From the NCBI GenBank assembly GCA_022747635.1, contig JAKTNV010000009.1:5531204-5595203 (forward strand): a stretch of 64,000 nucleotides of DNA, given 5' to 3'. The translations under genes were made by a program, and so were the position numbers. The notes under the pieces were generated by a model that did not search any database, was not told the DNA's origin, and saw only the letters and a list, made by a program, of their open reading frames with translations. Below, piece after piece: positions 9,442 through 62,788 of this stretch. The number at the start of each line of letters is the position of its first letter. Within the stretch, counting starts at the first letter, position 1. The DNA comes from Hetaerina americana. Lineage: Eukaryota; Arthropoda; Insecta; Odonata; Calopterygidae.

Positions 9442-10367
9442 CAGGGTCGCACCCAAAAGTCGTAGGACTAATTTTTTTACAAGAATTTTATTGACGATGT
9501 ACTTACATCGACTTAATAATCTCCAAAATATGCTCCTTGAGCTGCTACACGCTTAGTATAACGTTGCTCCCATTCCCCGTACGCCCGATGGAAATTTTCT
9601 TTGGGGATGCCGTTGATGACCCTCGTCGAAGCCTCTTGAACGGCCTTTATCGAGTCAAAACGTCGTCTCTTGAGCTGTCTTTTCATCAGGGGGAAGAAGA
9701 AGTCCGGGGGTGCCAGATCGGGAGAATAGGGCAGGTGCGGCAACGTGGCAATTCCGTATTTGGCCAGGAGCTGTCTGACAACGAGCGCACCATGGCACGG
9801 CGCGTTGTCATGACGAAGCACCCAGCAGTTTGCATGGCCAAATCCTGTGAAATAATGCGTTGGACGTTGGATGCAGACAGACCCAACTGGTCTGCAATTT
9901 CTTCACTGGTTAAGCGTCGGTCTGTGTTCAGCAGTGTCCTCACTCTGTCCACATTCGTGTCGGTTCTTGCCGTCGACGGCAGTCCGGAGCGATGGTCGTC
10001 TTCAACGAGCTCCCTACCCTCTTTAAACAACTTGTGCCACTCAAATATTGTGGAACGGCTTAAGGCAGTGTCCCCATAAGCCTGCTTGATCATATCGAGG
10101 GTCTCAGTTGCCGTCTTCCCGAGTTTCGCACAAAACTTCACGGAATAACGTTGCTCTAAATTCAGATTCATTTTGTTTTTCGACGCGAACAAAAAACTTG
10201 CTTCACTAAAAACGGTGTTCTCACTCAACGACGGCCCGCAGGCAACTGAGGTTGGTGTCGGTCTGTTGCTAAGAGCTCCCTCCACCTTACCCTGCCAGAC
10301 AGACACCCCTCCACCGCTCCGTTCGCGCCAGAGAAAATCAGTCCTACCACTTTTGGGTGCAACCCTG
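9442..10367 (-). mobile_element. mariner element, internally deleted
   Basis: Near-identical terminal inverted repeats begin CAGGGTYGCACCCAAAAGT at both ends (about 34 bases, 3 mismatches), flanked by TA target duplications at 9440-9441 and 10368-10369. The transposase is on the minus strand. The element is about 926 bases, shorter than the usual 1.3 kb, because the central catalytic region is deleted. It has inserted beside, or has expanded into, a TACA microsatellite. Confidence 0.85.
9513..10171 (-). pseudogene. mariner transposase, central deletion
   Basis: The start is the ATG at 10171 (MNLNLEQRYSVKFC). The N-terminal half keeps the paired helix-turn-helix region (FEWHKLFKEGRE, DDHRSGLPST, LTSEEIADQLGLS). 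After SQDLA (about 9840) the sequence jumps to the HDNAP block in another frame, so the GDE segment holding the first catalytic Asp is lost. The C-terminal part keeps HDNAP...PYSPDLAPPDFF with 34 residues between the two Asp, typical of DD34D mariners. It cannot encode an active enzyme. Confidence 0.85.
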
Positions 10368-10373
10368 TATGCA

Positions 10374-10520
10374 TACACATACCTACACATATACATACAT
10401 ATCCACACACACATACACACATAAACATACATACATGCATGCATACACATACATAAATACATACATAATTACGCACATATACACCCATACATACATACCT
10501 GTATACATATATAAATAAAG
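10374..10520. repeat. TACA/CA microsatellite
   Basis: Imperfect CATA/TACA tetranucleotide repeats run to the end of an AT-rich segment. Tyr/Val/Cys/Met-rich frames on the minus strand here are repeat artefacts. Confidence 0.8.
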
Positions 10521-20064: not shown

Positions 20065-22929
20065 CTAATTATTTTTTAGACGCTGAGGGTGGCAAGTGGA
20101 ATTTTTTCTATCTATAACCCTGCAGTTGCTATCCCGTATTGTCCGTGGGAAGAAGGAGTCCTTGAGTCGGCTAGTTCTGGCATCTATTTCCCGAATTTTA
20201 TATGCATGATCCAAGCGACCAATGTATGTAGGAGTACGAATAATTTGCGAGACCTCGGTGCTGAAACATGCGGATCTAAATTTATTTAATAATTTCAATC
20301 TTGCATTGAATCGTCTCTCAGCCAATGATTCCCACCCCAAATCCATGAGCATTTCGGTGACGCTTTGCGTTTTATCGTAGGAATTTTTTACAAAACGGGC
20401 TGCCCGGCGTTGAACCTTCTCAATTTCCCGAATGAGACCTTTTTCACTCGGATCCCACACGCTGCATGCGTATTCTAAATGAGGCCTTACAAGAGCGTGG
20501 TAACAACGTTCCTTGACCTTCGAGTCACTTTTTCCGACAACGCGTCGAATGAATCCCAATTTTTTATATGCTTGACCGCAGACTTTACGTATGTGAGACC
20601 CCCAAGTTAAGTCTTTTGTGAATGTGACACCTAGGTATTTTACCGTATCAACTACTGCTAGGTCACCTCCAGCTAATTTGTAAGCAAATCCCGTTGATCT
20701 TTTAAAGAAATTTACCACTGAACATTTATTATAATTTAGAGTCAATCCCCAGTTAGAACACCATTTAGTAATGCAATCTAAATCCTGCTCTCGAATAAAA
20801 CGATCCTCATCCCCAGATATCTCCCGATAGATCACCGTGTCATCCGCGAACATCCTAATTTTACTTTTCACTTCGCGGTTCAAATCGTTAACAAAAATCA
20901 AGAAAAGCAACGGCCCGATCACACTTCCCTGAGGTACCCCCGACGTGACTCGAACGCTGTCGGAACTAGCGCCATCAAGGACTACCCTCTGTTCCCGCTC
21001 CGAAAGAAAATCTTTAACCCAACTTATGGCGCCCTTGTTTATGCCCGCGACCTTTAATTTATGAATGAGTTTACCATGTGGGACCTTATCAAATGCCTTT
21101 TGAAAATCTAAGAAGATGGCATCCACTTGCCTACCTCTCTCACCAGATAAAACTAAATCATGTGTAAATAATCCTAATTGGGTTTCGCAGGAGCGGGTTT
21201 TCCTGAAACCGTGTTGATTGTCACTTAAAAAGTTAATATTGTCAAGGTGTCTCATTGTTGAACTGACAATTATGTGCTCTATGATTTTGCAACAGATAGA
21301 AGTGAGAGATATAGGTCTGTAATTACTGGGATCCTCCCTGTCACCACCTTTAAAAATAGGCGTTATTTGCGCGGTTTTCCAAATCTTAGGTACTTTGCAC
21401 TCTGTGAGGGATTTGTTAAATATAAATTCAAGGTACGGGGCAATGTTTGGAGCTAAATGTTTTATCACCCTAGCTGGTATATTTTCGGGACCCGGGGATT
21501 TGTTGGGTTTAATCTCGTTAAGCAATTTTAGAATTCCTTGTTGGTCCACTGTTATTTTTTCCATGGGTGGAGTATGTATTGTTTCTTGGAGATATGCGGT
21601 GGCAACATCATTCGAGAAAACGCTTGGGAAGAATGAATTTAAGATGTTAGCTTTACCCTCACTGTCTGTATGAATTATATTGCTACAATCCCTTAAGCAA
21701 GCCACGGTTTGTTTACTCCCATTTACTTCCCTAACATATGACCAGAAAGCTTTGGGGTCAGTGTCCAAGTGCTCGCAAAGTAATTGGCGTTTAAAGTCCA
21801 GTAAAGCGCTACGTAATTGTGTTTTGGTTTCAACTTTGGAGGATCTATATGTGTCCCATAATTGTTTATTCTCAGGGGATGATGTGTTCACGCCTGCCCT
21901 CTTTACCCTAGAGTGTAGCATTCTCTGCTTTCGGAGGGCTTTTCTAACGTCTTTATTGTACCACCTGGGGTCGCGATTTGCTTTAACGTATTTTATAGGT
22001 ATGAAATCTACGATTCCTTTTTGCATGATATTGACAAATTCTGTCCAGGTTTCTTCCACGTTGACATGACTTAAGCGGGTTTTGAACTCGGGTAGTGAAG
22101 AGTTTAGTTGATTGGCAAAGGATTCAAAGTCTGCTTTATGGTAATTATAAATTTTTCTTTTTGGTTTAATGATCTTTTTTATTTCTATGTCCAAGTGGAC
22201 ATTAGTTGCTTTATGGTCACTCAACCCCTCATCAGTTGATACACTAATAATACGTTCAGGCGTGTTTGTAAGAAATAGATCCAATATGTTCTTTCCACGG
22301 GTGGGCATGCGTACTGCTTGATGGAGGGAGTTTCTTTGAACCAATTTTATCATGGAATTGCAAGATTCGCGATCGCGGGTCCCAGATTTAACGATATTGT
22401 TGTCCCAATCTATACCAGGGAGATTAAAGTCGCCACCAATTATGTTTATGCTGTTATTATATTTACGTGTAAAATTGTAAATTTGATCGTTGAGGGTGTG
22501 AAGTGTTTTAAAATCTGAGTCTGGAGGTCTGTAGAAAGAGCATAAATTTATGTTGGGTTGATTGGTCCGTATTAAGGTGCACCAAACACTTTCTATGTTA
22601 TTATTCTCAAATGAAACTTGCCTGCTTTCAAAATGACTTTTAACTGCCACGAAAACCCCTCCTCCGGGTCTTGTATCTCTATCGTGTCGGTAAACTTTGA
22701 AATCTATTGGGAAAATTTCTTGGTCATTTATGTCATTGCACAGCCAACTCTCTGTGCCTAATACTATATCAGCGGAATGAGTTTGGATTATGTGTTCTAG
22801 ATCCGCTGATTTGTTCTTGAGGCTTCTGCAATTTATAACAAGTATAGTTAAATTATTTTGATGTTGAATAACGTCCTTATTTGTGCCTGACTGTAATTTA
22901 GGACGCCTTTGTGGGGAAGTGCGTGTCAC
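20065..22929 (-). CDS. LINE ORF2: endonuclease and reverse transcriptase
   Basis: The open frame is 954 codons from a GTG at 22929 and extends upstream without stop to the frameshift site. Residues about 25-240 form an APE-type endonuclease (LVINCRSLKNK, GTESWL, GGGVFVAVKSHF, GGDFNLPGIDW, LSDHKATNV). The RT domain follows (KSPGPENIPARVIK, NYRPISLTSICCKIIEHII, GFRKTRSCETQL, FLDFQKAFDKVPH, GVPQGSVIGPLLFL, FADD at about 694). It ends with the CR1-type C-terminal segment (LGFIRRVVGK, RPHLEYACSVWDP, SFFPRTIRD). There are no internal stops, so it may be functional. No ATG lies between the ORF1 stop and the endonuclease core, suggesting expression by frameshifting rather than separate initiation. 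Confidence 0.85.
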   Translation of the reverse strand: MTRTSPQRRPKLQSGTNKDVIQHQNNLTILVINCRSLKNKSADLEHIIQTHSADIVLGTESWLCNDINDQEIFPIDFKVYRHDRDTRPGGGVFVAVKSHFESRQVSFENNNIESVWCTLIRTNQPNINLCSFYRPPDSDFKTLHTLNDQIYNFTRKYNNSINIIGGDFNLPGIDWDNNIVKSGTRDRESCNSMIKLVQRNSLHQAVRMPTRGKNILDLFLTNTPERIISVSTDEGLSDHKATNVHLDIEIKKIIKPKRKIYNYHKADFESFANQLNSSLPEFKTRLSHVNVEETWTEFVNIMQKGIVDFIPIKYVKANRDPRWYNKDVRKALRKQRMLHSRVKRAGVNTSSPENKQLWDTYRSSKVETKTQLRSALLDFKRQLLCEHLDTDPKAFWSYVREVNGSKQTVACLRDCSNIIHTDSEGKANILNSFFPSVFSNDVATAYLQETIHTPPMEKITVDQQGILKLLNEIKPNKSPGPENIPARVIKHLAPNIAPYLEFIFNKSLTECKVPKIWKTAQITPIFKGGDREDPSNYRPISLTSICCKIIEHIIVSSTMRHLDNINFLSDNQHGFRKTRSCETQLGLFTHDLVLSGERGRQVDAIFLDFQKAFDKVPHGKLIHKLKVAGINKGAISWVKDFLSEREQRVVLDGASSDSVRVTSGVPQGSVIGPLLFLIFVNDLNREVKSKIRMFADDTVIYREISGDEDRFIREQDLDCITKWCSNWGLTLNYNKCSVVNFFKRSTGFAYKLAGGDLAVVDTVKYLGVTFTKDLTWGSHIRKVCGQAYKKLGFIRRVVGKSDSKVKERCYHALVRPHLEYACSVWDPSEKGLIREIEKVQRRAARFVKNSYDKTQSVTEMLMDLGWESLAERRFNARLKLLNKFRSACFSTEVSQIIRTPTYIGRLDHAYKIREIDARTSRLKDSFFPRTIRDSNCRVIDRKNSTCHPQRLKNN

Positions 22930-23036
22930 ATGTCTTTCTAAATCAATGCCAGTTTTGTCGGTGACTTTTATATTTTTATTAATAATATTATACGCGCTAT
23001 CCCCAGATGTTACTGACCCACTAAGTGACCTGCCCT

Positions 23037-23548
23037 CTATCCTAAAAAAGGCCTACAGTGGTCGAGTATCCTATCCGCTACCTTACTCGCCGCTTCCGCC
23101 GTGTAATGGACCCCAGATCGGTTAAGGGGAGTCCTGCAAGATCGGAGGGTTGGCCTCAGGTCGACGAAGGAGGCTCCTATGTCCGAGCAGAATCTCGATA
23201 GTCTCTGGTTTATGCCTTCCACTCGGCTCCAAACCAGAGACCCGCGATCCTCCCTCGGAACGATGCTGCAGACCGTTAGTCCCAGCCGAACCCCCTCGAC
23301 GCCCTGGACGCGCTTCACCTCGGAGCTCAGTTCCCTAAGGGAACGGAGGACCTCCTCGGATCCACGGTCCGTGACGTCGTTGGTGCCCACATGGGCCACG
23401 ACCTGCAGCCTAGAGCACTTCGTGCCTTTGACCGCTGCCTCGATTGCCTTCGTCACCTGAGGGACTCCTCCGCCTGGTATACACCAGGCGGTCACCCGTT
23501 GATCGGCGCCTACGCGGCGCGCCCTTTCCCTCAATGGAACCATTACAC
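23037..23548 (-). CDS. LINE ORF1, 3' part, SGNH esterase-like
   Basis: This continues ORF1 after the nested insertion, beginning V-MVPLRERARRVG. Esterase-type blocks are visible: AHVGTNDV (block III, GxND) and RSGVHYTAEAASKVADRI (block V, with the catalytic His). The position normally Asp in D-x-x-H appears as Ser, so activity is uncertain. CR1 ORF1 proteins commonly carry such a domain. The frame ends HCRPFLG-stop at 23037. The last codons CCT TTT TTA GGA TAG contain a canonical -1 slippery heptamer (23049-23043). Confidence 0.75.
23043..23049 (-). promoter_or_regulatory. candidate -1 frameshift site, T TTT TTA
   Basis: In the ORF1 frame the bases are CC|T TTT TTA|GGA TAG. This is an X-XXY-YYZ heptamer placed two codons before the stop. 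Slipping back one base gives AGG ATA GAG..., which stays open for 38 codons into the codon at 22929 where the ORF2 frame is then continuous. No clear downstream pseudoknot was seen by eye. Confidence 0.6.
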
Positions 23549-25650
23549 TTACTTACTTTCTCTTAAATTCATTCTTCCAAAGCGTTTTCTCGAATGATGT
23601 TGCCACCGCATATCTCCAAGAAACAATACATACTCCACCCATGGAAAAAATAACAGTGGACCAACAAGGAATTCTAAAATTGCTTAACGAGATTAAACCC
23701 AACAAATCCCCGGGTCCCGAAAATATACCAGCTAGGGTGATAAAACATTTAGCTCCAAACATTGCCCCGTACCTTGAATTTATATTTAACAAATCCCTCA
23801 CAGAGTGCAAAGTACCTAAGATTTGGAAAACCGCGCAAATAACGCCTATTTTTAAAGGTGGTGACAGGGAGGATCCCAGTAATTACAGACCTATATCTCT
23901 CACTTCTATCTGTTGCAAAATCATAGAGCACATAATTGTCAGTTCAACAATGAGACACCTTGACAATATTAACTTTTTAAGTGACAATCAACACGGTTTC
24001 AGGAAAACCCGCTCCTGCGAAACCCAATTAGGATTATTTACACATGATTTACTTTTATCGGGTGAGAGAGGTAGGCAAGTGGATGCCATCTTCTTAGATT
24101 TTCAAAAGGCATTTGATAAGGTCCCACATGGTAAACTCATTCATAAATTAAAGGTCGCGGGTATAAATAAGGGCACCATAAGTTGGGTTAAAGATTTTCT
24201 TTCGGAGCGGGAACAGAGGGTAGTCCTTGATGGCGCTAGTTCCGACAGCGTTCGAGTCACGTCGGGGGTACCTCAGGGAAGTGTGATCGGGCCGTTGCTT
24301 TTCTTGATTTTTGTTAACGATTTGAACCGCGAAGTGAAAAGTAAAATTAGGATGTTCGCGGATGACACGGTGATCTATCGGGAGATATCTGGGGATGAGG
24401 ATCGTTTTATTCGAGAGCAGGATTTAGATTGCATTACTAAATGGTGTTCTAACTGGGGATTGACTCTAAATTATAATAAATGTTCAGTGGTAAATTTCTT
24501 TAAAAGATCAACGGGATTTGCTTACAAATTAGCTGGAGGTGACCTAGCAGTAGTTGATACGGTAAAATACCTAGGTGTCACATTCACAAAAGACTTAACT
24601 TGGGGGTCTCACATACGTAAAGTCTGCGGTCAAGCATATAAAAAATTGGGATTCATTCGACGCGTTGTCGGAAAAAGTGACTCGAAGGTCAAGGAACGTT
24701 GTTACCACGCTCTTGTAAGGCCTCATTTAGAATACGCATGCAGCGTGTGGGATCCGAGTGAAAAAGGTCTCATTCGGGAAATTGAGAAGGTTCAACGCCG
24801 GGCAGCCCGTTTTGTAAAAAATTCCTACGATAAAACGCAAAGCGTCACCGAAATGCTCATGGATTTGGGGTGGGAATCATTGGCTGAGAGACGATTCAAT
24901 GCAAGATTGAAATTATTAAATAAATTTAGATCCGCATGTTTCAGCACCGAGGTCTCGCAAATTATTCGTACTCCTACATACATTAGTCGCTTGGATCATG
25001 CATATAAAATTCGGGAAATAGATGCCAGAACTAGCCGACTCAATGACTCCTTCTTCCCACGGACAATACGGGATATCAACTGCAGGGTTATAGATAGCAA
25101 AAATTCCACTTGCCACCCTCAGCGTCTAAAAAATAATTAGTTGTATTTAAATGCATGCTCTTCCACTAACCTTATGTGTTTTGCTATAATAACCCATTCT
25201 TTCCGAATGACCTCATTCATGTTCTGTTCATCTGTTTTTAAGTTTCCCTTTCAATCCCTCGTCCCTCTCCGCGGGGGCAAATTCCTGCTACCTGCAACGT
25301 TGGGTCGCATTCCCTGCCAATTAGAGACTCTTTGGGGGTCGAGTGTTTCGTGGTGCATTTTCATGTGGTAGTGATGTTTCAATTTCTTGCTTGTTGTGTC
25401 CTGGCTTCCGTGTTGTAGGATGTCTTTCGTGCTGCATCATGGGGTGCAGTTTTTTAGTTGTTTTGCGGTATATGTGTTTGCATGAGTATTGGATGAAGGG
25501 ATTTTTGCATGAGTGTGTGCGCTGCTGTGGGTGTAATTTTCCGTGTTTTTTTTTTTGCATGTGGTATTTTTCTTTTTTACGGTTGGTGACCTAACACCCC
25601 CCGCCACACGCCCTTGCGGCGGCTTGCGGGGTATTATGTAGATGTAGATG
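23549..25650 (+). mobile_element. nested, 5'-truncated family A copy (antisense)
   Basis: This 2,102-base insert carries the same LINE in the opposite direction, flanked by TACAC at 23544-23548 and 25651-25655. Homology to the host copy starts at 23561 (TCTTAAATTC). The 12 bases before it (TTACTTACTTTC) have no counterpart, like extra bases often seen at LINE 5' junctions. The tail is (GATGTA)n. Removing it with one TACAC restores ORF1. The encoded RT segments differ from the host copy at only a handful of residues, so the insertion is recent. Confidence 0.88.
23641..25140 (+). CDS. LINE ORF2 RT, truncated copy
   Basis: A 499-codon open frame matches residues 456-954 of ORF2 in the host copy, lacking the endonuclease and early linker. 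It keeps the whole RT core, including GVPQGSVIGP and FADD (codons at 24355-24366), with no stops. Differences include ISRLDHAYK for IGRLDHAYK, and changes near KGTISWVKDF and INCRVIDSKN. Without endonuclease and promoter it is presumably non-autonomous. Confidence 0.85.
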   Translation: MEKITVDQQGILKLLNEIKPNKSPGPENIPARVIKHLAPNIAPYLEFIFNKSLTECKVPKIWKTAQITPIFKGGDREDPSNYRPISLTSICCKIIEHIIVSSTMRHLDNINFLSDNQHGFRKTRSCETQLGLFTHDLLLSGERGRQVDAIFLDFQKAFDKVPHGKLIHKLKVAGINKGTISWVKDFLSEREQRVVLDGASSDSVRVTSGVPQGSVIGPLLFLIFVNDLNREVKSKIRMFADDTVIYREISGDEDRFIREQDLDCITKWCSNWGLTLNYNKCSVVNFFKRSTGFAYKLAGGDLAVVDTVKYLGVTFTKDLTWGSHIRKVCGQAYKKLGFIRRVVGKSDSKVKERCYHALVRPHLEYACSVWDPSEKGLIREIEKVQRRAARFVKNSYDKTQSVTEMLMDLGWESLAERRFNARLKLLNKFRSACFSTEVSQIIRTPTYISRLDHAYKIREIDARTSRLNDSFFPRTIRDINCRVIDSKNSTCHPQRLKNN

Positions 25651-25655
25651 TACAC

Positions 25656-26169
25656 GACGGACATTCGAGCTACCTATTACTACAACTCCCTCCCTTCCCG
25701 TTCCCTGACGTATTACCCTAGGCAGTGCCCTCGGAGTAGGGATAGGGGCTGCAGGTACGGTGGTGCTATCATCCGACAGCACCTGGTACCTGTTGGAGAC
25801 GGGGATGGTATCTGCCTCCGCAGAGTCCAATCCACGCCGCAGCGTTACCTTCCCCTTGCCCCGAGAGACGACCCTCCAATCGTCCGACCTACGGACGTGA
25901 GACACTCCCTCGTTGGGAGATGGGACACGGGGTAGGTCTCTAATCGCCCAGCCACGTGTTGCATTCGGACGAATCCGTGCACCCATATGGGCGTGGCGGG
26001 TTTTCGTATTCCCACCCCGAGCACCGTCTCTCCTGAGGGAGGTCCTCCGGCCAGCGATCTCCGATCGAAGCTCCCGCACCATTCTCTCCAGCATGACAAT
26101 ACGGGCCCTTAAAGCCGCGCATTCGCCAGTGCCTTCGAGCATGGCAACAGGGGACCTAGATGAAGCCAT
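25656..26169 (-). CDS. LINE ORF1, 5' part (interrupted)
   Basis: The first ATG (26169) starts MASSRSPVAMLEG; an upstream TTG also keeps the frame open. Residues about 15-45 (ALRARIVMLERMVRELRSEI) form a likely coiled coil, as in trimerising or RNA-binding LINE ORF1 proteins. A basic, Arg-rich stretch follows. The segment ends at VVVIGSSNVRRV, the first block of an SGNH-hydrolase fold with the putative nucleophile Ser. Here the coding sequence is interrupted by the antisense LINE copy and resumes at 23548 in the same frame once the copy and one TACAC repeat are removed. Confidence 0.7.
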
Positions 26170-58570: not shown

Positions 58571-59713
58571 ATGATGGACAATAGAGATATTTTGAGTCCT
58601 GGCAACCACGGGGCTCGACCCAATCGGCCGTGTGTCGTGCCCGGCAGCGGGGGAGGCAAGGCTTCCGCGGTCGTCATCCCACGAAACCCGTGCAAGGGAA
58701 AACCAACAGCAGCAGGACAGAAGGCGCAGGAGAAGAAGACGAAATTAGTTAGAATAGGAACGTGGAATGTTAGGACAATGATGAGGACAGGGAAATTGGA
58801 GAATGCTAAGCGAGAGATGGAAAGGGGAAATATAGATATTTTAGGTCTATGCGAGGTGAGATGGAAAGATAGCGGGGATTACTGGAGTGATAAGTATAGA
58901 ATAATATACAACGGTGGGGACGAGAGCCAACGAGGGGTTGCCATAGTATTAAATGAAAAGGTAGGAAGAAGCGTAGTCAACATAGAGCAGGTAACGGATA
59001 GAATACTACTAGTGGAGATAAAAGCAGAACCGACAAACTTAGTTATTACTCAGGTATACATGCCACCGAGCAACCATAAGGAAGAAGAGGTCGATAGGAT
59101 ATACGATCAGTTAGAGGACATGATCGCCTGTGTTCCTGCAGGGAAACCTTTGATAGTGATGGGGGATTGGAATGCGACGGTAGGCAAAGGAAGAGATGGT
59201 GATGAGGTGGGGGACTACGGTTTAGGCACGAGGAATGACCGCGGGGAGAAAGCAGTTGAGTTCTGCAGAAGACAGGGGTTAGTCATAACCAACACTTGGT
59301 TCAGACACCACAAAAGACGCAGGTATACATGGAAAATGCCAGGTGACTCAGGAAGATATCAGCTAGATTATATCCTGGTTAGACACAGGTTTAGGAACAA
59401 TGTGATAAATTCCCACAGCTTCCCGGGAGCGGATGCGGACACAGACCACAATTTAGTTGTTATGAAATGTAGTGTCCGTTTCAAAAAGATAAGGCAGGGG
59501 CGGCGAGTTAGAAAATGGAATATGGAAGCATTAAATGGGTTGAAAAGGAGGGAATACAAACAGGCGGTAGAGAAAATCATGGAGGCTGGTAAAGGGCTCA
59601 GTACTATCGAAGAAAAATGGGAAAGTATCAAGATAAGGTTGCCTAAAGCCGCAAAAGAGTATATTGGAACCCATAACGCTAAAAGGACTAGAAAACCATG
59701 GATCACGGATTAG
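58571..59713 (+). CDS. RTE-like ORF, endonuclease portion
   Basis: The ATG at 58571 opens 380 codons. Residues about 60-310 form the APE-type endonuclease (RIGTWNVRTMMRTGKLE, CEVRWKDSG, QVYMPPSNH, VMGDWNATVGKGRDG, DYILVRHRF, ADADTDHNLVVMKC). Genome annotations often call this domain 'craniofacial development protein 2-like', a transposon-derived name. The frame ends at WITD-TAG. The next codons, MIAKMD-TAG-RRKW, continue the same protein, so the two TAG codons are probably mutated Glu codons of a single longer ORF. Confidence 0.8.
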   Translation: MMDNRDILSPGNHGARPNRPCVVPGSGGGKASAVVIPRNPCKGKPTAAGQKAQEKKTKLVRIGTWNVRTMMRTGKLENAKREMERGNIDILGLCEVRWKDSGDYWSDKYRIIYNGGDESQRGVAIVLNEKVGRSVVNIEQVTDRILLVEIKAEPTNLVITQVYMPPSNHKEEEVDRIYDQLEDMIACVPAGKPLIVMGDWNATVGKGRDGDEVGDYGLGTRNDRGEKAVEFCRRQGLVITNTWFRHHKRRRYTWKMPGDSGRYQLDYILVRHRFRNNVINSHSFPGADADTDHNLVVMKCSVRFKKIRQGRRVRKWNMEALNGLKRREYKQAVEKIMEAGKGLSTIEEKWESIKIRLPKAAKEYIGTHNAKRTRKPWITD

Positions 59714-61077
59714 ATGATTGCAAAGATGGATTAGCGGCGAAAATGGCAGAATATAAATACAGAATTAGGAAAAATGAAGTACAAAGAATTGAACAATAAA
59801 TTGAGGCGGGCAACAAATAAAGCAAAGGAAGCATCGTGGAAGATGCAGTGCGAGGATATGGAAAGTCTGCAGAGAAAGGGTGAAATCGGTGCGCTGTACA
59901 GCAAAGTTAAATCGTTATCGGGAAGTAAGAAAGGAAGATATATAGTATGCTAACAGTTAGAGACAAGGCGGGTAAGGTAATAGTTGACACAGGAAAGATC
60001 CAAGAGAGATGGAAGGAGTATATAGAAGAACTGGATAGTAAATAATTCAGACCAACAAAGTTAGGCATAGAAAATGAAATTGACGTAGAGGAAGACAGCT
60101 TAGGTCCAGATATACTAGACAATGAGATAGAAAGGGCATTTAGGGAGATGAAACTAAATAAGGCCGCGGGGGTAGATAACATTCCTGTGGAACTTTTAAA
60201 ATTCTTGGGAAAATGTGGGAGGAAGAGGCTATATGGGCTGATCCGTAGTATTTATGAGGAGGGAATCTGGCCGGAAGACTTTGTGAGATCAGTTTTAGTT
60301 CCTATTCCGTAAAAGGTAAAAGCTACATCATGTGAGGAATACAGGACAATAAGTTTGATATCCCACGCAGCTAAAGTTGTTCTCAGGATCATAAACAACA
60401 GGATAGAGAGTAGGCCAAATGATTGTTCAGGGGATGACCAGTTTGGATATAGGAAGGGGAGAGGTACGCGTGATGCCATTGCAGTAATGAGATTATTAAT
60501 CGAGAGGAATATAGAACACAACCAGGAGGTATTTGCCTGTTTCGTAGATTTCGAAAAAGCGTTTAATAGAGGGAATTGGGAAAAACTAATGAATATATTG
60601 CAGAAAATAGGAATAGATTGGAGGGAAAGGAGGCTAATCCGCAACCTGTACATGTCTCAGACTGCTCAGGTGCGGGTGGGAAACTGGGAGGCAGGATGGG
60701 CAGTGTTAGAAAGGGGTGTAAGGCAGGGTTGCCCATTATCACCGTTGCTGTTCAACCTGTATGCAGAGGAAATGATCAAAGAGGCATGGGAAGAACTCGA
60801 GTTGGGAATGAAAGTGGGCGGGGAATCCGTAAAATCAGTGAGGTTTGCTGATGACCAAGCTTTAGTTTGTCAGTCAACCAAGGGGTTGCAAGCATTGCTA
60901 AGTGAATTGGAAATTCAGTGCGACAGGTATGGGATGAGAATCAATATTGATAAAACAAAGGTTATGCGATTTTCTAGAAAGAAAAAGGCCAAGCTTAACA
61001 TTAAAATAGGTGGGCAAAAAATAGAGCAGGTAGAACAGTTTACGTATCTCGGTAGTGTTTTGGACCAACACGGTTAA
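59714..61077 (+). pseudogene. RTE-like RT portion with lesions
   Basis: After the TAG, the sequence runs RRKWQNINTELGKMKYKELN to GRYIVC-stop. A frameshift near 59940 leads to MLTVRDKAGKVIVDTGKIQERWKEYIEEL, a stop, then KLNKAAGVDNIPVELLKFLG and a TAA at 60310 (VPIP-stop). From 60355 the RT core is open for 240 codons: QFGYRKGRGTRDAI, FACFVDFEKAFNRGNWEKLM, GVRQGCPLSPLLFNLYAEEM, VRFADDQALVCQS, DKTKVMRFSRK. It ends prematurely at LDQHG-TAA. The FADD motif is intact, but the element cannot produce a full polyprotein. Confidence 0.8.
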
Positions 61078-61456: not shown

Positions 61457-62788
61457 CTACCTTGATCAAAAAGTTCCCGGAATAACCACCGTGTGGCGCT
61501 CCCATCGTTCCGATTGGAGTTCTGTTTTTTTTGTTAAATTGGTACATCTGTTGTTGATATTCCCTTTAAATCTTAGTGTCATAACTTGACATTTGCAAAA
61601 GTTACGTAGCCAAGAGTACATCTATCTCTGTGTGTGTTGGCGATTTTTTACAATTTCAGAAATGGATTTAAATTTGCAACAACGAACTTGTATTAAATTT
61701 TGCGTAAAAAACGGATTTAGTGGCGCACGGACGTTGGAAATGTTGGAAAAGTGTTTCGGCAACGATTCTCTAAAAAAAACGGTCGTTTACCAGTGGCACG
61801 AGCGGTTCAGAAGTGGTCGTGAGTCAATCGAAGATGATGAACGCAGTGGCAGACCATCGACATCGAAATCCGGTGAAAAAATTGATAAAGTAAAAGAAAT
61901 GTTGGTCAATAACCGCAAATTAACCGTCAGAGAAATAGCGGAGGACTTGAACATTGCCTATGGATCCGCCCAAGACATTGTGGTTAATGATTTGGGTTTC
62001 CGTCGTCTAGCAGCAAAGTTGGTGCCAAAAGACCTCAATTTCATGCAAAAAAGAGACCGTGTTGACGTCGCAAAAGACATGATTTGCGAGGCTGAATCCG
62101 ATCCCACATTCATCAAAAGGATCATTACTGGAGACGAGACGTGGGTTTATGAGTACGACACGCAATCCAGACATCAGGCAAGTGAATGGCGTTCACCAAA
62201 TGAGCCGAGACCAAAAACACCACGTCGTTTTCAGTCAAAAAAGAAGGCAATGCTGACGGTTTTCATGGATTACAACGGTGTAGTGCATCATGAATTTTTG
62301 CCAGAAGGCCAGACAGTAAACAAAGAGTATTATTTGGGCGTTATGAGACGTTTGCGTGAAGCAATTCGCCGAAAGAGACCAGAAATGTGGGCAGAAAACT
62401 CGTGGATTTTGCACCATGATAACGCACCGTCGCACAGTGCTATCATTATTCGCAATTTTTTGACGAAAAATGCAACAAATACCATCCAACAGCCACCGAA
62501 TTCACCTGATTTGGCTCCCTGTGACTTCTTTCTGTTCAATCGAGTTAAAAAACCATTACGGGGAACGCGTTTTAGCAGCCGAGAGGAAGTAATGGAAAAA
62601 TCGCAGGAAGCACTGATGGACATACCGAAAACCGAATATAAAAAATGTTTCGAGGATTGGATCAAGCGCTGGCATAAGTGTGTTGCAGTCGATGGGGATT
62701 ACTTTGAAGGGGACAATATAGATTTAGATGAATAAACTTGAATTTTTAATTTTCTGAATAAATTCCGGGAAATTTTTGATCAAGGTAG
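61457..62788 (+). mobile_element. mariner element, apparently intact
   Basis: The 1,332-base element has 27-base terminal inverted repeats starting CTACCTTGATCAAAAA with one mismatch, flanked by TA duplications at 61455-61456 and 62789-62790. It encodes one uninterrupted transposase. Length, TIR size and target site all match a complete mariner. Low TIR divergence and lack of coding lesions suggest recent activity or recent arrival, possibly by horizontal transfer, which is common for this family. Confidence 0.93.
61662..62735 (+). CDS. mariner transposase, DD34D
   Basis: The chosen start ATG (61662, MDLNLQQRTCIKFCVKN) fits the family N-terminus; the frame is open upstream to 61593 within the leader. 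The protein has 357 residues, close to the usual 340-360. The N-terminal paired helix-turn-helix includes WHERFRSGRESIEDDERSGRPSTS (about 44-68) and LTVREIAEDLNIAYGS. The catalytic triad is present: Asp158 (TGDETWVYEY), Asp253 (HHDNAPSH) and Asp288 (SPDLAPCDFFLF), with 34 residues between the last two. It cuts and pastes the element at TA sites in the nucleus. Nothing visible disables it. Confidence 0.93.
   Translation: MDLNLQQRTCIKFCVKNGFSGARTLEMLEKCFGNDSLKKTVVYQWHERFRSGRESIEDDERSGRPSTSKSGEKIDKVKEMLVNNRKLTVREIAEDLNIAYGSAQDIVVNDLGFRRLAAKLVPKDLNFMQKRDRVDVAKDMICEAESDPTFIKRIITGDETWVYEYDTQSRHQASEWRSPNEPRPKTPRRFQSKKKAMLTVFMDYNGVVHHEFLPEGQTVNKEYYLGVMRRLREAIRRKRPEMWAENSWILHHDNAPSHSAIIIRNFLTKNATNTIQQPPNSPDLAPCDFFLFNRVKKPLRGTRFSSREEVMEKSQEALMDIPKTEYKKCFEDWIKRWHKCVAVDGDYFEGDNIDLDE

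Follow-up and report, generated by a model that had tools for sequence, protein, structure and literature searches.

How the second open reading frame (ORF2) of long interspersed nuclear elements (LINEs) is translated is a long-standing question. The canonical retroviral-type slippery pattern is X XXY YYZ, with UUUUUUA as the heptamer of the human immunodeficiency virus type 1 (HIV-1) kind, and older frameshift proposals for individual LINEs may exist. In the available excerpts of the papers concerned, coupled or unusual restart of translation is described for SART1 (PMC5972666) and human L1 (PMC2881922), the expression mode of TART and of mammalian LINEs is called unknown (PMC5009743), the catalytic residues of the ZfL2-1 ORF1 are given (PMC3905857), and, within the Jockey superfamily, an esterase ORF1 is reported from two vertebrate groups alone (PMC4120745); the excerpts of PMC1947958, PMC1925062 and PMC5563155 add nothing further. 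Searches of an open-access library, in which most subscription papers are absent, listed none that deals with -1 frameshifting in LINEs of the CR1 type. Here we analyse a stretch of 64,000 nucleotides from the odonate Hetaerina americana (contig JAKTNV010000009.1, positions 5,531,204 to 5,595,203; hereafter the window), whose minus strand carries a LINE that we call family A. An original prediction, made from the letters alone, had proposed that ORF2 of this element is expressed by -1 ribosomal frameshifting at T TTT TTA. Comparison of copies and relatives supports this proposal in family A, on the strength of the open copies, a second family and ORF1 proteins from outside this genome, and -1 frameshifting at U UUU UUA is probably the route to family A ORF2, being the best supported of those considered.

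The ORF1-ORF2 junction and its copies

On the minus strand of the window, the 3' end of ORF1 reads ...CAC TGT AGG CCT TTT TTA GGA TAG AGG GCA... The heptamer lies two codons before the stop, as had been predicted (Table 1), and CCT TTT TTA, as read in the ORF1 frame, fits the canonical -1 pattern N NNW WWH. From 23043, the -1 frame (AGG ATA GAG GGC AGG TCA ...) is open to a stop ending at 20065, 992 codons in all, of which the 954-codon ORF from GTG 22929 is the downstream part; the predicted continuity of the two is thereby confirmed. In the copy L054, this heptamer is the sole canonical in-frame X XXY YYZ among 340 positions of ORF1 (ORF2 has four among 991), and it falls inside the span of about five codons from which a -1 shift can reach ORF2. 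The placement of the heptamer at the family A junction exceeds chance. Six copies in which both ORFs are open were checked, and all bore out the expectation that no in-frame ATG precedes the endonuclease core: the ORF2 frame has its first Met at codon 230, the endonuclease motif NCRS stands at codon 70, and no ATG able to start the full ORF2 was found in any of them.

Family A is abundant in the 1.63-Gb genome: the exact junction 15-mer occurs 759 times versus 10 for its reversed pattern, and a junction pattern blind to the heptamer (up to 3 mismatches) matches 957 times versus 2 for its control. Among the junction matches listed from the blind pattern, TTTTTTA is kept in 91 of 100, a set that leans young because all its members have perfect flanks. 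After removal of six duplicates, we had 47 unique family A loci that include a junction, which are not a random sample, L039-L046 having been chosen for odd junctions and L015-L038 from good ORF2 scores. The heptamer is present in 40 of these, with the -1 frame open over 975 codons in 26, broken in eight and too short in six; every one of the 26 open loci carries it in the -1 phase, and the seven loci that lack it are all broken, with 26-70 stops per 990 codons. This association is partly due to age, because the seven are older copies. One locus (L037) has the heptamer and an otherwise open ORF2, but an indel in the spacer sets ORF2 out of phase. Intact copies lacking the heptamer, holding ORF2 in another phase or carrying an ATG start for it, any of which the original prediction had taken as evidence against itself, did not appear among the family A copies seen.

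Searches from either side of the junction gave a similar picture. With an outside protein as query for ORF2 (45 candidates scored of 115,844), the frame is open for 993-995 codons, back to the shift site, in 32 of 39 family A matches. In the ORF1 search, 131 of the 132 matches lie in open frames no longer than 365 codons, and the ORF1 stop is therefore generally kept. A 1937-codon open frame with a family A ORF1 (L073, G000:C1204:1381350-1381850) was set aside: its junction is ordinary and stops at TAA, which places the additional codons upstream.

These observations can be assembled into a mechanism. Family A is a multi-copy two-ORF LINE, its ORF1 encoding a predicted coiled coil and an esterase-like domain and its ORF2, in the -1 phase of the same RNA, an endonuclease and a reverse transcriptase. 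Most ribosomes would end ORF1 at TAG, and a minority would shift backwards by one base on U UUU UUA, just before the stop, and enter ORF2, yielding an ORF1-ORF2 fusion through ...HCRP-F-F-R-I-E-G-R-S-L-S-G... Frameshifting of this kind would keep the copying enzyme scarce relative to the ORF1 protein, as in gag-pol. The geometry, the heptamer, the lack of a usable AUG and their conservation are read directly from the copies, and it is from these that we infer the slip, its frequency and the fusion as a working protein.

The site in related families

Family B was found in the same genome via ORF2 similarity, not via the heptamer (L009, L011 and L013), and its ORF1 shares 99 of 170 residues with that of family A. 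Its junction reads TAT TTT TTA GGC AAA TGA with ORF2 in -1, and the site is kept in all three copies with a junction; in L009 and L011 the -1 frame runs without a stop beyond NCRS (codon 98), and in L013 it breaks at codon 67. Family C (L059-L062 and L067) is represented by old copies, all broken and each seen over only about 0.5 kb, whose junctions have GCT or GAT and then TTT TTA in four of five cases, with ORF2 again in -1. The codons that follow the shift can be aligned by eye across the families: AGG ATA GAG in A, AGG CAA ATG in B, AGG TTA ATG in C (L062) and AGG CAA GAG in a fourth family, D.

Beyond this genome, we found 21 related ORF1s (P0121-P0141) in a search that scored only the candidates with most shared words; these are known by protein letters, and their codons are accordingly presumed. 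P0135 (a fused model) and P0139 (which stops inside the domain) were left out, and the remaining 19 were taken as C-terminally complete because all reach a common end. Phe-Leu stands 1-6 residues before that end in 18 of the 19, with varying preceding residues and distance; P0141, the one without it, ends like family D. In a tree of the domain without its tail (root chosen by us; 8 of 16 inner branches weak), each of the two deep clades contains Phe-Leu, and D falls within one of them. DNA relatives from outside were sought in viral_contigs and genome_contigs, and none was found. The site thus appears conserved across diverged relatives, as DNA in A and B and as Phe-Leu in the outside proteins, with D and P0141 as exceptions, and the Phe-Leu ending shared by related ORF1s suggests that the signal is older than family A.

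The fused model P0135, whose source name is Schistocerca serialis cubense, joins ORF1 via FFR, ...WAGRFFRLDGLGQ..., to the endonuclease. Its WAGRFFRLDG fits what TTT TTT AGA CTA GAC GG would encode, the -1 reading of TTA GAC TAG. An ORF1 that ends in FLD*, as P0131 does, should yield such a peptide when read on in -1. More tentatively, in what we consider close to an even call, an old lineage of esterase-ORF1 LINEs that includes those of this host and of Schistocerca may make its reverse transcriptase as a gag-pol-like fusion via U UUU UUA, with some families keeping an ATG route, A relying on the slip alone and D having moved to +1.

Weighing frameshifting against other routes to ORF2

Several observations count against frameshifting. 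In family B, an ATG overlaps the ORF1 stop (AUGA) in the ORF2 frame of L009, L011 and L013. The heptamer of family C is conditioned by choice, as copies were picked for a T-run (from 128 matches, control 36, with rows starting CACTGCAG without a T-run left out); one of them, L067, has TTT TTT rather than TTT TTA, and another, L062, whose -1 frame stays open over 58 codons, has TAATG at the ORF1 stop, an overlap missing from the other family C copies, which break at codons 2-21. The intact family D (L069-L072 and L036) has neither heptamer nor ATG and holds ORF2 in +1; no stop was found in 47 of 47 among the matches listed, and in L036 (4830-5250) there is no Met within 292 codons, with NCRS at codon 107. 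A distant family, E (L001, 560-1000), joins its ORFs at TAATG in the -1 phase without the heptamer. A -1 site does not account for the whole lineage: the intact family D lacks both the heptamer and the -1 phase, and a stop-overlapping ATG is present in B, one C copy and E. Within family A itself, no codon constraint was detected in the 38-codon spacer among the 26 open copies: its shared variants comprise 3 synonymous and 9 nonsynonymous changes, against an expected synonymous share of 0.22, and in the ORF2 body, by contrast, the split is 74 to 52.

The downstream pseudoknot that the original prediction suggested looking for was not found in A or B, where no convincing stem appeared either (fold z -1.8 to +0.9 in family A and -0.6 to +1.4 in family B), and a simple search for H-type pseudoknots in A, B and D gave none. 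Only L064, an older copy of the A type, gives folds better than its shuffles (z -2.2 to -1.7, a single case), and the family C copy L059 has a pseudoknot candidate that 3 of 60 shuffles matched. At a UUUUUUA heptamer, ribosomes could plausibly slip at a low level even with no stimulator.

The alternative that survives best, although we judge it unlikely, is coupled termination and restart: ribosomes would end ORF1 of family A at TAG and begin again at the near-cognate AUA of AUAG, a route that relatives may share at AUGA (B) or UAAUG (C and E). With an ATG overlapping the ORF1 stop in B, L062 of family C and E, such stop-start coupling could by itself account for the phase. Family D has an ATA one base past its own stop. 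AUA is a weak start codon, however, and restart leaves unexplained both the Phe-Leu at variable distance from the end of the outside ORF1s and the fixed letters of T TTT TTA amid varying neighbours in A and B. SART1 does use such coupling, but according to the excerpt of PMC5972666 needs a downstream structure for it, of which we found none here.

The fixed letters are best seen in the last six ORF1 codons, compared in A (L054), B (L011) and C (L059 and L062). Every third position varies (TGT/TGC, AGG/AGA, GGA/GGC/GGT) except the heptamer's three—the third base of the codon ahead of TTT, then TTT and TTA—while the residue preceding Phe-Leu is P, Y, A or D; the CAC codon just ahead of the six is also invariant in A, B and C. 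Between A and B, two-fold synonymous sites agree no more often than expected by chance (17 of 36 the same) and four-fold sites somewhat more often (27 of 54). Under synonymous recoding, the heptamer would arise with a chance of 0.009 in A and 0.021 in B, values that are not simply multipliable because the families share ancestry.

The same letters bear on a second, improbable alternative, that Phe-Leu is kept for the ORF1 protein, leaving the heptamer a by-product and ORF2 expressed otherwise. An amino-acid role is possible because Phe-Leu sits at the end of a predicted last helix (323-341 of P0121, which includes F340-L341; block pLDDT, the predicted local distance difference test score, 81-93), and the outside ORF1s can speak only to residues. 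A role in the protein does not account for the retention between A and B, near synonymous saturation, of TTT, TTA and the third base T of a changing residue, and D and P0141 do without the pair. Polymerase slippage on the T6 run, adding a U to some transcripts and so fusing the frames, is highly improbable: such a run is slippage-prone in principle, but T7 variants of the junction number 13 (control 6) against the 759 T6 copies and are not in excess, so there is no sign of fusion via added Ts, a comparison that is not decisive, as slipped transcripts need not be copied back. Independent, uncoupled initiation at a non-AUG codon such as GTG 22929, to which the unconstrained spacer might point, is the least credible of all, given frames open back to the shift site in most family A matches and over the 98 codons from the site to NCRS in L009 and L011. 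The families themselves, with heptamer and ATG, with heptamer only and with neither, form a natural series in which frameshifting could be told apart from restart.

The window element and known systems

The element runs on the minus strand from the ORF1 ATG at 26169 to the end of ORF2 at 20065. The predicted reading of the ORF1 end and junction stands; ORF1 is not whole in the window, an inverted copy of the same family interrupting it between duplications of TACAC (23544-23548 and 25651-25655). The 3' end of this insertion bears short TGTAGA repeats.

Table 1. Features of the family A element in the window
Feature	Position	Strand	Remark
Slippery heptamer T TTT TTA, read CCT TTT TTA in the ORF1 frame	23043..23049	-	15-mer around heptamer 759 times in genome
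ORF1 stop TAG, one codon (GGA) past the heptamer	23037..23039	-	
ATA codon of the -1 frame (AGG ATA GAG), overlapping the stop as ATAG; possible near-cognate restart codon	23038..23040	-	
Spacer in the -1 frame, 38 codons (RIEGRSLSGSVTSGDS...), open, without ATG, reaching the ORF caller's start GTG	22930..23043	-	
ORF2 body, endonuclease and reverse transcriptase, 954 codons from GTG 22929	20065..22929	-	PF14529, PF03372, PF00078
ORF1 N-terminal part from ATG 26169 (MASSRSPVAM...), split off by the insertion	25651..26169	-	
ORF1 C-terminal part, SGNH/GDSL esterase-like domain, end HCRPFLG*; 23544-23548 is one duplication copy	23037..23548	-	
Inverted, 5'-truncated copy of family A inserted in ORF1	23549..25650	+	Uninterrupted site present in other copies

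ORF2 has the order of a CR1-clade LINE, an apurinic (AP)-type endonuclease (PF14529/PF03372) followed by a reverse transcriptase (PF00078), "CR1-like" being the label of the original prediction. The C-terminal part of ORF1 matches PF13472 at E 4.7e-5 (24.4 bits, under the gathering score of 32.9), and the predicted structure of the outside relative P0121 has a long helix (13-46) and a folded esterase-like part, with a whole-model pLDDT of 67. In the window (23037-23543), SGVH stands where the catalytic DxxH of ZfL2-1 would be expected, the Asp being absent; esterase activity of the ORF1s of this group is doubtful because of this replacement. The family E ORF1 (L001) carries DGVH. The family D ORF1 ends AGG GTT TAG C, where a +1 shift or a restart may take place, and a 5'-truncated relative in the window (38031-35300) shows no junction.

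Elsewhere the window holds two mariner-type transposase ORFs, at 61593-62735 (plus strand; Transposase_1, PF01359, E 1.4e-17) and 9686-10462 (minus strand; Mos1 HTH_48, PF17906, E 1.6e-6), and another LINE with an endonuclease ORF at 58571-59713 (plus strand; PF03372, E 1.2e-14) followed by a reverse transcriptase ORF at 60355-61077.

In its predicted proteins, family A resembles the CR1/L2 elements with a Type IV ORF1, such as ZfL2-1, which combine a coiled coil and an SGNH esterase-like ORF1 with an endonuclease and reverse transcriptase ORF2. It differs from ZfL2-1, whose catalytic residues are D279-x-x-H282 in the excerpt of PMC3905857, in its SGVH, its heptamer junction and its grasshopper relative, the last of which stands against the two vertebrate groups named in that of PMC4120745. 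HeT-A, a telomeric LINE of Drosophila, is likewise a non-LTR (long terminal repeat) element said to need a frameshift, but there, as the available part of PMC5009743 has it, it is gag itself that the shift serves, and HeT-A lacks a reverse transcriptase. SART1, a silkworm LINE with UAAUG coupling, is like this group in being a two-ORF element and in the overlapping stop and ATG of B, one C copy and E; family A is unlike it in having ATAG without an AUG overlapping the ORF1 stop and in keeping a slippery heptamer. With retroviral -1 frameshifting, family A shares a heptamer in the right frame within the last ORF1 codons, a reverse transcriptase in -1 and a fusion predicted to be scarce, and it departs from it in being a LINE in which we found no stimulatory structure; if frameshifting in family A is true, LINEs and LTR elements would share one solution to a common dosage problem.

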